Below, in pieces: positions 6,991 to 22,846 of a stretch of DNA of 64,000 nucleotides. Under the pieces are notes generated by a model, which had not been told where the DNA came from, ran no database searches, and worked only from the letters and a program-made list of their open reading frames with translations. Each line of letters starts with the position of its first letter. The stretch's first letter is position 1. Source of the DNA: Candidatus Aenigmatarchaeota archaeon (GTDB taxonomy: Archaea > Aenigmatarchaeota > Aenigmatarchaeia > Aenigmatarchaeales > JACQIB01); NCBI GenBank assembly GCA_016198755.1, contig JACQIB010000002.1, forward strand, positions 1 through 64,000. Direction: 5' to 3'. The position numbers and the translations under genes are program-made.

Positions 6991-7007
6991 ATATAACAGT
7001 GTTATAT
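6991..7007. promoter_or_regulatory. ATATAACA-N-TGTTATAT dyad, copy 1
   Basis: perfect 8+1+8 inverted repeat; same motif occurs twice in the presumptive oriC. Confidence 0.8.
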
Positions 7008-16755: not shown

Positions 16756-17493
16756 ATGTGGTGGATGATTGAGGTTGAGACTTTAGCTAAGGAAAGTGTT
16801 GGTAAAAGGATAGCAGGAGAGATTGTTCTAAGTCCGGATGCTGGTAAAACCATACAAAAATGGAGAAATATGTTTAAAATACCTCAAAGAATGTTAGCTG
16901 AAGAGATGAAGGTAATGCCTTCTGTTATTAGTGATTATGAAAACAGTAGGAGAAAAAGCCCTGGGATAAAGGTAATAAAGAGGATTGTGGATGCACTTAT
17001 CTCTATAGATGAGAAGAATGGGGGAAAGATTATAAAGGAGTTTTCAGAATTCCCTGCTAGGGCTGTGTTATCAGAAGCTGTAATAGATTTGAAGGAATTT
17101 TCATCTACAATGACAGTAAAGGAGTTTTGCAAGTCTATTGGAGCAAATGTTGTTGCAAGATCTGATTTAGCTGAAGGGAAAATACATGGTTATACGGTTA
17201 TTAACAGTATGAAGGCTATTATTGAGCTTCCTCCAACAGAACTTGTTAAATTGTATGGATTAACCAGTGAAAGAGCTCTGATCTTTACTGGAGCACATAG
17301 AGGAAGGAGTAGTATGGTGGCTTTGAAGGTTACAAACTTAAGGCCTGGAGTTGTTGTTTTACATGGTGTTAGTGGAGATGGGGTTGATGAACTTGCAAAA
17401 AGAATTGCAGAAATTGAAGGAATTCCATTGGCTTCTATAAAAGGTGGGGATTTAGACGAACTCATAAAGTCATTAAAATCTATATCTGCTTAG
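16756..17493 (+). CDS. XRE-type HTH transcriptional regulator with conserved archaeal C-terminal domain
   Basis: HTH 'IQKWRNMFKIPQRMLAEEMKVMPSVISDYENSRRKSPGIKVIKRIVDAL'; C-terminal 'GLTSERALIFTGAHRGRSSMVALKVTNLRPGVVVLHG'. Confidence 0.88.
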   Translation: MWWMIEVETLAKESVGKRIAGEIVLSPDAGKTIQKWRNMFKIPQRMLAEEMKVMPSVISDYENSRRKSPGIKVIKRIVDALISIDEKNGGKIIKEFSEFPARAVLSEAVIDLKEFSSTMTVKEFCKSIGANVVARSDLAEGKIHGYTVINSMKAIIELPPTELVKLYGLTSERALIFTGAHRGRSSMVALKVTNLRPGVVVLHGVSGDGVDELAKRIAEIEGIPLASIKGGDLDELIKSLKSISA

Positions 17494-17541
17494 ACTCCCC
17501 CCTTTAATTCTACTGGAAATGAGGTCTTTTATTATATTTAG

Positions 17542-17556
17542 TATAACACTGTTATA
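17542..17556. promoter_or_regulatory. TATAACA-N-TGTTATA dyad, copy 2
   Basis: perfect 7+1+7 inverted repeat in the presumptive oriC. Confidence 0.8.
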
Positions 17557-17638
17557 TGAAGTAAAGGTTCTCTGCTGCAGAAATATAAAGATTTAAAAAC
17601 AATATCCATAAGAAACCATGGCGGGGGCAAAAACAATC

Positions 17639-17657
17639 AATATAACACTGTTATATT
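17639..17657. promoter_or_regulatory. AATATAACA-N-TGTTATATT dyad, copy 3
   Basis: perfect 9+1+9 inverted repeat in the presumptive oriC. Confidence 0.8.
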
Positions 17658-17882
17658 CCAGTTCACACACCAAAATATGAAGTAAATAGCTTCACATAAC
17701 CTTCATTAATGTTCACAAATAGAAAAATCGATTAAACCCCTCCGTTTCCAATGAAAACCATCAAAAACAGAACCCCCTTGTTTCACATGGAAATTTATAT
17801 ACCTTCATTTCCAATCCAGTTGTTCACGTTTGGTTAAGGTTAAATATGTTCACGTACTGGAATCATTGCACTAGAAATTGAG

Positions 17883-19088
17883 GTGATTCCAATGCCAGAG
17901 CTACAACAAATATTCAATCAATTTATTGAATCAAAACCAATCTTTGCAAACAGATCAATATTGTCTCTTTCCTTTACACCAATAACAATACCACATAGGG
18001 AAAATGAGATAGAAGGCCTAGGTAGAATCTTAGCTCCTGCATTAAAGGGAGGTAAACCAAGCAATGTATTTGTATACGGAAAGACAGGAACAGGCAAAAC
18101 CCTTGTTTCTAAGTATGTTACTGAAGAGCTAGAGAAAGCATCAAAAACAACAAACCAAAAGCTCAAGACAGTTTACATAAACTGTAAGTTAAGACATTCA
18201 GCTGACACGGAGTATAGGCTTTTAGCCTATATAATAAAGGAACTGGGGGGCGATGTACCCTTTACAGGACTTCCAACAGACAAGATATTCTCAACTTTCT
18301 ATGAGTTTGTTGAACGTGAATCACAATGCCTTATCCTTATAATAGATGAAATAGACTCTTTGATTAAAAAGACAGGAGACGGGGTTCTATACAGCCTTAC
18401 AAGAATGAATCAGGACCTAAAGAAGTCAAAAATATGCATTATAGGCATCACAAATGACCTGTCTTTTATAGAAACACTTGATCCAAGGGTAAGATCTTCC
18501 CTGAATGAAGAGGAAATTGTATTTTCTCCATATAATGCTTTCCAGCTGCAGGAAATACTCAGGCAGAGGGCAAATATAGCGTTTCCAAACAGTTCAATGG
18601 AAGCAGGCGTAATAGAAAAGTGTTCTGGTTTGGCAGCTCAGGAACATGGAGATGCACGCAGAGCACTTGATCTGTTAAGGGTTGCAGCAGAGATAGCTGA
18701 AAGGAGAGGGGAACCTGTAATAAAAATTTCCAATGTGGATGAAGCACAGGAAAAGATAGATACAGACAGGGTTACAGAAGCTGTTAAGATGCAGCCGCGT
18801 CAATCACAGGCTGTTTTGAACTCTTTAATGGAAGCTTCAGCAGGAAAAAAAGATGTGGAAACCGGAGACGTTTTTGAAAAATACACAAACTTCTGTTCTA
18901 TCCATCACATAAAACCCTTAACTCACAGAAGAATTTCAGACTTAATTGCAGAGCTTGAGCTCTTTGGAATAATAAGCTCAAAGGTGGTTTCTAAAGGGAG
19001 ATATGGCAGGACACGAGTTATTTCCCTTTCCATAAACGATGAGATAAAAGTAAAGGTGCAGACTATCCTAAAGGAAAGCTTTGGTTAA
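17883..19088 (+). CDS. cdc6: Orc1/Cdc6 origin-binding initiator
   Basis: 'NVFVYGKTGTGKTLVSKYV' Walker A, 'LILIIDEIDSLI' Walker B, 'ALDLLRVAAEIAERRG', C-terminal WH 'YTNFCSIHHIKPLTHRRISDLIAELELFGII'. Confidence 0.97.
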   Translation: MIPMPELQQIFNQFIESKPIFANRSILSLSFTPITIPHRENEIEGLGRILAPALKGGKPSNVFVYGKTGTGKTLVSKYVTEELEKASKTTNQKLKTVYINCKLRHSADTEYRLLAYIIKELGGDVPFTGLPTDKIFSTFYEFVERESQCLILIIDEIDSLIKKTGDGVLYSLTRMNQDLKKSKICIIGITNDLSFIETLDPRVRSSLNEEEIVFSPYNAFQLQEILRQRANIAFPNSSMEAGVIEKCSGLAAQEHGDARRALDLLRVAAEIAERRGEPVIKISNVDEAQEKIDTDRVTEAVKMQPRQSQAVLNSLMEASAGKKDVETGDVFEKYTNFCSIHHIKPLTHRRISDLIAELELFGIISSKVVSKGRYGRTRVISLSINDEIKVKVQTILKESFG

Positions 19089-19097
19089 GGAGCTGTT

Positions 19098-20081
19098 ATG
19101 TCCAACATAGAAAGGCTTACAAAAGCAGGCATTTTAACAGACCCAGGCGTTGCTGAATTAGTTGAAAAACTATCTGAAAAACAGCTGGACTTTTTTATAA
19201 AATCAAAAAACAAGCCCCTAATCTTACAAAAAATTCATTTCAAATCATTTCAGCCAAAAATTGAAATAAAAACAGACATGGAAAAGAGGAAAAGTATACA
19301 GGATTTTATAAATATTCTAAACTCACGTTTTTCCCTCTTACAAAGAATACTAATGTCAAAATCAAAGGACAGCAACTTAGTTTCAATAAAAAGCGCTTCT
19401 GAAGGGAACATTTCCATTATAGGACTGATAAAAACCATATCGGAAAATAATGGAATTTTCAGGACAGAACTCGAAGATCAAACAGGCACAATAAAAGCTT
19501 CTGTCCCCAAAAATTTACCCGGAAAATTTGAAAGGTTTTTTCTGGATGAAGTTGTGCAGATTTCCGGAAGATTTTCATCAGGAGTTTTATACGCAGAAAA
19601 AATAGAATGGCCTGATATACAGTTAACAGAATATAAAAAACCAGACACAACTTCAACAGTCTTTATCTGTTTTTCCTCCTCTATTATTACACTTCCGGAA
19701 AAGGCAGATTCCTGCAATATTATAATATCAAACCAGCCTGTCCAAGCCACATTTCAGCAGGCAATAACTATAACCAACACATCCGCAGCCAAAATAAATG
19801 GCATAAATTTACTTTTCTATATGGAAAATGTAAAGGAAACAACTGATAAATTCAGCATAACAGAAAAAGAGTTTATTTTAGAATGTTTAAAGCGAAGGCA
19901 CTTCCTCAAGGAACCCTGCCTCCAATCAGGAATAATAGAAGAACAACCAGATTATTTCATTTTTCAAACACAAACACCTTTCACAGATTCCTACAGAGGA
20001 ACTATGATAATAGGTCTGCCAAAAGAAACATTTTGTTTACTTGATTTTGTTGACAGAAGTGCAGAATTCGGTACAATATAA
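19098..20081 (+). CDS. DP1-like protein (PolD small subunit/B-subunit family) with degenerate phosphoesterase domain
   Basis: 'FINILNSRFSLLQRIL', OB fold 'IIGLIKTISENNGIFRTELEDQTGTIKASVPKN...FFLDEVVQISGRF', C-terminal 'ECLKRRHFLKE...DYFIFQTQTPFTDSYRGTMIIG' in DP1 order; DxHxG, GNHD and GHxH motifs absent. Confidence 0.75.
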   Translation: MSNIERLTKAGILTDPGVAELVEKLSEKQLDFFIKSKNKPLILQKIHFKSFQPKIEIKTDMEKRKSIQDFINILNSRFSLLQRILMSKSKDSNLVSIKSASEGNISIIGLIKTISENNGIFRTELEDQTGTIKASVPKNLPGKFERFFLDEVVQISGRFSSGVLYAEKIEWPDIQLTEYKKPDTTSTVFICFSSSIITLPEKADSCNIIISNQPVQATFQQAITITNTSAAKINGINLLFYMENVKETTDKFSITEKEFILECLKRRHFLKEPCLQSGIIEEQPDYFIFQTQTPFTDSYRGTMIIGLPKETFCLLDFVDRSAEFGTI

Positions 20082-20164
20082 GAAAAAATACCCTACACTG
20101 GAGGATAGAAAACCTCTTAAATAGTTTTCAACACCTATATTCGTCAGCTTCTTTGGTGGGGAAC

Positions 20165-22846
20165 ATGAAAGCTCAGGTATTAGATTGCGACTACACAATG
20201 CTGAACGGCAAACCTCTAATAAGGCTCTTTTGCAAAGATGAAAGCGGAGGCACAGTCTGTTTTTTCTATGAAAATTTCCTTCCATATTTTTATGTTCAGT
20301 CTGAAAATATTGAAACCGCAAAAAAGGAAATAGAAAAAACTGCAAAAGCAGAAGTTGTAGAAAAGTTTTTACCAATAGGATACGGCCCTAAAGTAAAACT
20401 ATTAAAAGTAATAGGCAAAGACCCCTCAAAAATACCTGACATTAAAGAAACTATTTCCAAGGTTTCAGGTATTTCGAAATTTTTCGAGTCTGATATTCTT
20501 TTCAAATACAGGTTCATGGTAGATAACAATATTAAAGGTATGGGATGGATTGATGTTGACTGCTCAAGAACTATAACAAAAACCGTAAAATGTCCCGCTT
20601 ATACTGCAAAATCATTCAAGCCGATAGAAGTCATAAAAAATGCTCCATTGCGCTATATGTCCATAGACATAGAATGTGTAAGCAAAACAGAAACAATACC
20701 AGATATGAATAAAGATCCTATAGTAATAATTTCACTCAATTTTTTCCCGGATTATAAGGGAGCAAAAAGTATGGTTATGGTTGCAAAGACATCACCCAAA
20801 TTTATAGAAAACCAGTTTAATTTTGTTTCAGAAGAGGAAATGATGAAGAGATTTTTAGAAATACTTGAGGATTATGATCCTGATGTTGTAACAGGCTATA
20901 ACATAAACAACTTCGACTTACCGTACATAATTACCCGCCTAGAAAAACTAAATATAAGAAAAGACCTTGGAAGAGCAGACAAGCCAGTAATGCTGAAAAA
21001 GATGCAAATGGGCTATACAGCCTCTGTACTTGGAAGGGTTATTGTAGATACTTATGAAATAATAAAGAAGGATGTTTACCTTCACCTTAAAAGATATGAT
21101 CTAGGTACTGTAGCAAGAAGCCTGCTTAAAATGGAAAAAATAGATATTGGAGGCATAAAGGAAATAACGAGGTACTGGAAAGGTGATCCTAAGGCAATGG
21201 GACCACTAATACAATATGCAAATGTTGACGCTGAGCTTGCAATGAGACTTTTAATAGATAAAGGAATATTGGACAAATTTTTTGAAATATCAAAACTTTC
21301 CGGTTTGACACTACAGGATTCCCTCGGTGGTCAGTCTCAGAGGCTTGAGTGCAGACTTTTGCATGAATTTAGAGACAGAGATTTTGTTATGCCAAGCAAG
21401 ACATCCGGCCCAGAATTAGAAGCACTAAAAGAAAAGAGAGAAAAATATGGACTTAAGGGAGCTCTTGTTCTGGAACCTGTTGTTGGTTTACATACAGACG
21501 GATCCATACTTGTTCTTGACTTTACTTCACTATACCCATCTATAATAAGAAAATTTAACATATGCCCCACAACAATGCTTGTTTCAGGCGATGAGAAATG
21601 CAATGTTTCTCCAACTGGAACGAAGTTTGTCCTTCCAGAAGTCAGGCAGGGCATACTCCCAAAAATTGTCCATGATCTCATTTCAACGCGAGCTGCAGTA
21701 AGGAAGCAATATAGAGCAGAAACAGATCCGGAAAAGAAAAGAATACTTGATGCAAAGCAATTTGCTCTTAAAGTCCTTGCGAACTCCCTTTACGGATACA
21801 CGGGATACCTTAAAGCCAGACTATACGTGATGGATATAGCAAACACAATAACAGGATACGGAAGAGATACAATAGTTAACACAACAAAACTCATAGAACA
21901 AACATATTCAACAAAAGTTATTTATTCTGATACAGATTCTGTCTTTGTCAAGACAGGTATAACTAATCTGGAAAAGGCTCAGGAAAAAGGCGAAGAAATG
22001 TCCAGATTTGTCACAGAAAAATTAAACGGATTAGAGCTGAAGTTCGAAAAAATATTCAAGAGTTTCTTAATTCTTACTAAAAAAAGATATGCCGGCTGGT
22101 ATTTTGAAAAGCAGGGAAACGACTGGAAAACAAAGGTTGATATGAAGGGTATAGAGACTGTGAGAAGGGATTGGTGTGAGCTTACATCAGAATCCATGGA
22201 AAAAACTATAGACATACTTCTAAAAGAGCAGGATATTAAAAAAGCTGCCCACTTTATACGCGGAATAATACAGGATTTGAATGATGGTAAAATACCTCTT
22301 GAGAAACTTACAATAGTTAAAGGTGTGTCAAAATCTTTGTCCAGTTATGATGGAATACAGCCTCATGTAGAGCTTGCGAAGAAGATAATGATGAGGGATC
22401 CAACACGCGGAAGTCTTGTTGGAGAGAGATTGGGATTTGTAATAATAAAAGGAAACCAGATGCTTTCCAAAAGGGCAGAAGAACCTTCTTTTGTGAAGGA
22501 ACATAATCTAGAGATTGATTCCCAGTATTATCTTGAAAATCAACTTCTTCCCCCACTACAAAGGATTTTTGAAGCATGCGGCGTTGAAAAAACAGAACTT
22601 ATCGAAGGTAACAGACAGAAAAATCTCACGGAAATACTTTCTGGCAGAATATTAACTCCAGCCCAGACAGTACTAGATACATGGGACAGCATATCCTGTT
22701 CAAAGTGTTCATGGAATTACAGAAGGCCACCCCTCTCAGGTTCATGTCCAAACTGCAACAGTCAGATATTTTTCCGTTCCAACGGTTCTATAGGAAAATT
22801 TGTTACAAATTTCTTCATTATAGACCAGCAAAAAACAGCATTGTAG
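20165..22846 (+). CDS. polB: family B DNA polymerase with C-terminal zinc finger (ORF opens at GTG 20153)
   Basis: Exo 'MSIDIECVS', 'GYNINNFDLPYI', 'YANVDAELA'; Pol 'LDFTSLYPSII', 'KVLANSLYGYTGY', 'YSDTDSVF', 'KKRYAGW'; C-terminal 'CSKCSWNYRRPPLSGSCPNCNSQIFFRSNGSIGKFV'. Confidence 0.97.
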   Translation: MKAQVLDCDYTMLNGKPLIRLFCKDESGGTVCFFYENFLPYFYVQSENIETAKKEIEKTAKAEVVEKFLPIGYGPKVKLLKVIGKDPSKIPDIKETISKVSGISKFFESDILFKYRFMVDNNIKGMGWIDVDCSRTITKTVKCPAYTAKSFKPIEVIKNAPLRYMSIDIECVSKTETIPDMNKDPIVIISLNFFPDYKGAKSMVMVAKTSPKFIENQFNFVSEEEMMKRFLEILEDYDPDVVTGYNINNFDLPYIITRLEKLNIRKDLGRADKPVMLKKMQMGYTASVLGRVIVDTYEIIKKDVYLHLKRYDLGTVARSLLKMEKIDIGGIKEITRYWKGDPKAMGPLIQYANVDAELAMRLLIDKGILDKFFEISKLSGLTLQDSLGGQSQRLECRLLHEFRDRDFVMPSKTSGPELEALKEKREKYGLKGALVLEPVVGLHTDGSILVLDFTSLYPSIIRKFNICPTTMLVSGDEKCNVSPTGTKFVLPEVRQGILPKIVHDLISTRAAVRKQYRAETDPEKKRILDAKQFALKVLANSLYGYTGYLKARLYVMDIANTITGYGRDTIVNTTKLIEQTYSTKVIYSDTDSVFVKTGITNLEKAQEKGEEMSRFVTEKLNGLELKFEKIFKSFLILTKKRYAGWYFEKQGNDWKTKVDMKGIETVRRDWCELTSESMEKTIDILLKEQDIKKAAHFIRGIIQDLNDGKIPLEKLTIVKGVSKSLSSYDGIQPHVELAKKIMMRDPTRGSLVGERLGFVIIKGNQMLSKRAEEPSFVKEHNLEIDSQYYLENQLLPPLQRIFEACGVEKTELIEGNRQKNLTEILSGRILTPAQTVLDTWDSISCSKCSWNYRRPPLSGSCPNCNSQIFFRSNGSIGKFVTNFFIIDQQKTAL

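Follow-up and report, generated by a model that had tools for sequence, protein, structure and literature searches.

A B-family DNA polymerase with a DP2-like C-terminal finger encoded beside a DP1 homologue that lacks catalytic residues in Aenigmatarchaeota

The window, meaning the whole stretch of 64,000 nucleotides that was analysed, belongs to a genome of the Aenigmatarchaeota (G000), and its closest named relatives are Aenigmatarchaeota MAGs. Three genes follow one another on the forward strand: an Orc1/Cdc6 initiator (17883..19088, +) matching Pfam Cdc6_C and Cdc6_lid, a 327-aa homologue of DP1 and the polymerase B-subunits (19098..20081, +), and a B-family DNA polymerase of 893 aa (20165..22846, +). 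About 10 bases separate the cdc6 stop from the start of the B-subunit gene, and 83 bases lie between the end of that gene and the PolB ATG. This cassette is preceded by an intergenic region (17494..17882, no strand assigned) which carries two copies of the palindrome TATAACACTGTTATA together with TTCACA-like repeats and is a putative origin or operator. The palindrome, TATAACA(C/G)TGTTATA in general form, occurs twice at a distance of 99 bp upstream of cdc6 and once more at 6992-7006 and has 11 places in the genome, as against 0 for the reversed pattern. Possibly it is a regulator's operator, or part of an origin along with the TTCACA-like repeats. An HTH_3-type DNA-binding protein is encoded at 16756-17493, adjoining the palindrome-bearing region and cdc6 on the upstream side, and is a candidate for the protein that reads the palindrome. 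Neither an Rfam nor a tRNA scan of the window gave a match.

A complete family-B polymerase is read from the open frame at 20153..22846 (+); its residues are numbered from the ATG at 20165 because the starts of the relatives align there. Pfam DNA_pol_B was matched with an E-value of 3e-113 and exo1 with 5e-40. The exonuclease motifs (D168/E170, N246/D251 and Y351/D355) and the polymerase motifs (SLYPS, KxxANSxYG and DTDS) are all intact, which confirms the complete, motif-intact core claimed in a preliminary description of this DNA. The same description compared the protein with PolB3, but it is not a PolB3: the nearest solved relative is human Pol delta, both in sequence (phmmer against the PDB) and in fold (Foldseek). 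The cysteine of DIEC in ExoI and that of NIC in motif A are present, and the ExoIII cysteine is absent. By its best PDB match and these cysteines the core would be Delta-like, in agreement with group B6. An AF2 model of the PolB has an ordered core, then a disordered linker and then a separate, small beta-rich module. The linker (22610..22654, +; residues 816-830) has a pLDDT below 50 in that model and varies in length and sequence among relatives.

Behind the linker lies a four-cysteine finger with a YRRPPLSG loop (22691..22819, +), where the peptide quoted in the preliminary description is read exactly. Its cysteines are C845, C848, C861 and C864, with codons at 22697, 22706, 22745 and 22754; in 17 aligned PolBs all four cysteines and Gly859 are invariant, and Leu857 is nearly so. 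When the 73-aa tail alone was searched with phmmer against all PDB sequences, DP2 of PolD came out on top (E-values of 3.5e-6 and 8e-5), the next match standing at 0.54. A profile built from 25 tails and searched against the PDB likewise placed DP2 first: it scored 50 bits (E 1.5e-12) on the third zinc finger of DP2, Zn-III, and at most 1.2 bits on the two other zinc fingers of the same chains. The NCBIfam DP2 models match residues 846-885 of the intact PolB, and the eight-residue YRRPPLSG loop is identical to that of DP2 in some genomes of family f12 (e.g. L152). No eukaryotic Pol CTD was reached from the tail by sequence alone.

These scores bear on a different reading, which takes the tail for a generic zinc ribbon, RpoP- or LysW-like, that was gained independently, binds DNA or PCNA and merely resembles the DP2 finger. 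The RpoP, LysW and S27e ribbons do appear in the tail profile search at marginal E-values, but with about 17 bits or less compared with 50 for DP2 Zn-III, and no unrelated protein exceeds the 22 bits of adenylate kinase. Moreover, the DP2 match spans the YRRPPLSG docking loop and so extends beyond the cysteines, and the neighbouring gene encodes a DP1-like partner. We therefore rejected a generic ribbon on the profile scores and give independent gain hardly any credence. The DP2 kinship proposed in the preliminary description, which had allowed that the tail might fit generic ribbons equally well, is thereby upheld; sequence comparison supports a finger of the DP2 Zn-III type, homologous to it and predicted to bind zinc.

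A scan of named genomes with the single protein returned nothing, and an alignment-based scan returned 80 PolB loci, nearly all titled Aenigmatarchaeota. The pattern C-x2-C-(about 12)-C-x1-2-C follows the last polymerase helix in 78/80 of these related PolBs, and the two finger-less ones both run into a contig end. An assembly chimera as the source of the tail was rejected, since 78 other PolBs carry the same tail. The arginine dyad of the loop is missing from the fingers of some relatives (f11, f16 and f22). Many of the same genomes encode a second, divergent PolB whose match stops near residue 820 and which has no tail. Such tail-less PolBs within the same phylum thus provide an internal negative control for the finger, and they speak against the possibility, raised beforehand, that most PolB3 proteins carry it. 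Three fingered PolBs (G002:C67, G005:C123 and G057:C2) have open frames of 1246-1400 aa in which the match falls into two segments separated by a gap, so that they may contain inteins.

Fingered PolBs were also sought in 80 viral loci as a mobile source, and none was found there. The nearest viral PolBs (L161, L162, L163 and L166) are about 35% identical over the whole core and finger-less; they lie on viral contigs of 44-76 kb and are candidate kin of a mobile source. They terminate in QQSLTKF at the point where the core of the PolB ends. At the end of the core in the window, ahead of the linker, stands the putative PIP-like (PCNA-binding) peptide RQKNLTEI (22613..22636, +), whose Q818 is invariant in the 17 aligned PolBs. 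Judged from these sequences, the Q-x-x-L peptide may be the original C-terminal PIP box, behind which the finger was appended, and it could bind PCNA.

The adjacent 327-aa protein was described beforehand as DP1-like, and both profile and fold bear this out. It matches DP1 in NCBIfam (1e-20) and in the PDB (1e-11), in each case over the N-terminal/OB part only. It has an OB fold and a remnant phosphoesterase without catalytic residues, retaining 0/8 metal-site residues of the Mre11-like phosphoesterase. Its AlphaFold model is confident (pLDDT 87, pTM 0.83). In a Foldseek search with this model ranks 1-10 were solved DP1 structures, and ranks 11-42 were B-subunits of eukaryotic Pol delta, epsilon, alpha and zeta or replisome structures containing them. 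The OB-phosphoesterase fold has therefore been kept while its chemistry has been lost. Erosion of DP1 is graded across the genomes. All eight metal-site residues are present in f12 and Thermococcales DP1, seven in f17-type genomes (GNHD to GNMD), six in two separate clades, four in f8 and none in the window. One f12 DP1 (L160, G034:C21) has its phosphoesterase motif II broken (GGDLC / CDGVG) by a long insertion whose ends are intein-like.

The window B-subunit sits on a very long branch (2.13) and is at most about 31% identical to its relatives, and in some lineages its gene lies apart from PolB. Such rapid evolution might mean that the retained finger has lost the 327-aa protein as its partner, the latter serving initiation with Cdc6 instead. 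The confident OB-phosphoesterase prediction, however, matches B-subunits that are bound to polymerase CTDs, and PolB and the B-subunit gene are adjacent in most loci, the window included, so that we consider a lost partnership very unlikely. In most related loci cdc6, the B-subunit gene and PolB are consecutive; in others cdc6 and the B-subunit gene lie a few kb off on the opposite strand. Because cdc6 is known to be linked to DP1 near the origin in euryarchaea (PMC2643942), the PolB can be said to occupy a PolD neighbourhood.

The window genome contains a single PolB and a single DP1-like gene, and no match to PF03833, the N-domain of DP2, was found in it. A search with an archaeal EF-2 profile also failed to find EF-2, giving only weak matches to other GTPases, which is probably a matter of MAG incompleteness. 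As the genome is 89% complete and EF-2 is missing too, its lack of DP2 is weak evidence when taken alone, and because its own absences count for little, the argument for DP2 loss is carried by the pattern across the phylum. The genomes of the relatives are likewise incomplete MAGs. In a set of 59 relatives DP2 was confined to family f12, where 7/7 genomes have it. A fingered PolB is present in 48/52 genomes outside f12 and in 0/7 within it; this count takes strong matches to the whole PolB, pieces at contig ends included, the finger itself having been read in the loci. The two are never found together in one of these genomes. Four genomes outside f12 are without a fingered PolB (G006, G010, G016 and G054); among them G054, at 91% completeness, lacks DP2 and yielded no fingered PolB either. 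Across 143 genomes of the phylum DP2 is present in 9, all of them f12, and missing from 134/143.

Several genomes that are at least 90% complete lack DP2 and have the fingered PolB as their sole PolB (for example G029, 97%; G018, 94%; G017, 93%), and on these grounds it would be the replicase by elimination. A contrary reading makes the fingered PolB and its B-subunit an accessory polymerase for repair or restart and leaves bulk replication to another enzyme. In its favour, many relatives encode the second, tail-less PolB as well. Yet in the window genome, as in several near-complete ones, the fingered PolB is the sole PolB and DP2 is lacking, and the genes adjoin cdc6 as DP1 does in euryarchaea (PMC2643942); an accessory role is accordingly an unlikely one in our estimation.

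Family f12 is the one family that keeps PolD. An RpoB tree rooted on Thermococcales/Sulfolobales nests f12 beside f8/f15/f17 with support of 100/98, and an unrooted EF-2 tree does the same with 100/99; the main clades of the PolB tree are largely those of these two trees. The idea that f12 is simply a basal keeper of PolD is thus unsupported by RpoB or EF-2. The subunit tree places every PolB partner on one side (100/99) and f12 DP1 opposite, with Thermococcales DP1. Constraining f12 DP1 to group with its species-tree sisters was rejected (p 0.003), and the position could be an artefact of the long branches of the decayed subunits. No cdc6 was found in the stretch read around f12 DP1, unlike in the other families. 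Tentatively, with somewhat less than even confidence, the ancestors of f12 may have exchanged DP2 for the fingered PolB, with decay of DP1, after which a complete, active PolD returned in f12 and its fingered PolB disappeared. A common ancestor with both systems, followed by lineages losing one or the other, also fits. Under regain and sorting alike, both sides of a replicative polymerase swap would survive within the class, along with stages in between. The natural intermediates, DP1 proteins with 8, 7, 6, 4 and 0 metal-site residues and a PolD family, are a useful addition, and with them biochemistry and better trees can test in which order finger capture, DP2 loss and nuclease decay took place.

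Taken together, the main replicase of this aenigmatarchaeon is very probably composed of two subunits, a Delta-like (B6) PolB that has replaced DP2 while keeping the Zn-III finger, and DP1 as a non-catalytic B-subunit. PolD offers a model for their contact. In Pyrococcus abyssi PolD the Zn-III loop with its two arginines sits in an electronegative groove between the OB and phosphoesterase domains of DP1, and a 20-residue Zn-III peptide of P. horikoshii binds DP1 with nanomolar affinity (PMC6355029). The YRRPPLSG of the PolB tail corresponds to the DP1-docking arginine dyad of the P. abyssi enzyme. As Zn-III does in PolD, the finger on its flexible linker would lodge its Arg-Arg loop in the groove that separates the OB domain of the B-subunit from the dead phosphoesterase domain. 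The PolB chain would carry out both polymerisation and proofreading by its exonuclease, which would leave the DP1 nuclease free to decay. The putative contact between finger and B-subunit may be weaker than in PolD, since the extra DP1-binding helices of DP2 are not seen in the AF2 model of the tail.

Compared with the DP1-DP2 PolD of Thermococcales, the window has in common a docking finger, an OB-phosphoesterase partner and cdc6 near DP1. It differs in having a PolB core in place of the two-barrel DP2, a dead DP1 nuclease and an exonuclease domain in PolB that would do the proofreading. With eukaryotic Pol alpha, delta and epsilon it shares a B-family catalytic subunit, a C-terminal cysteine module and an OB-phosphoesterase B-subunit which, in the window, is predicted to be without nuclease activity. 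In contrast to those enzymes it has one finger (CysB type) and not two, no CysA or Fe-S cluster, and no helical CTD detectable in the AF2 model of the tail. This is the arrangement that the ancestral eukaryotic replicative polymerase is proposed to have had, with catalysis by PolB, a DP1-derived scaffold and a DP2-derived finger holding the two together, as the preliminary description had suggested. The evolutionary reading is the same in Kazlauskas et al. (2020, PMC7544198), whose text proposes replacement of DP2 by B6-aenigma1 PolBs and a link to eukaryotic polymerases. The preliminary description was unsure whether the architecture had been described before; it had been, in that paper, as B6-aenigma1. 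There, group B6 is defined within the Delta-like clade, the B6-aenigma1 PolBs have one DP2-type zinc motif, and Aenigmarchaeota are reported without DP2 and with an inactivated DP1. The B6-aenigma2 PolBs of the same paper (PMC7544198) have two zinc motifs; the window shares with them the B6 core and the DP2-type second finger, and their first (CysA) motif is absent in the window, nor did reading the tails of the 80 loci reveal it. No later experimental study of a B6-aenigma1-type PolB was found in the literature searched. B6-aenigma1 and the window agree in phylum, Delta-like core, single Zn-III-type finger, inactivated DP1-like subunit and absence of DP2. As far as the main text of that paper describes the group there is no essential difference, the window being a further genome with a more eroded B-subunit (0/8). 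A fingered PolB with a dead DP1 is thus a real and conserved arrangement, but one already described for Aenigmatarchaeota in 2020, and since the idea was published with the same archaeal group, what is mainly added here is a clean, operon-like case together with a broad census. Relative to the main text of Kazlauskas et al. 2020, it goes further in the nesting of f12, with intact PolD and no fingered PolB, inside the class and in the graded erosion of DP1, and new here is the conserved cassette of cdc6, B-subunit and PolB.
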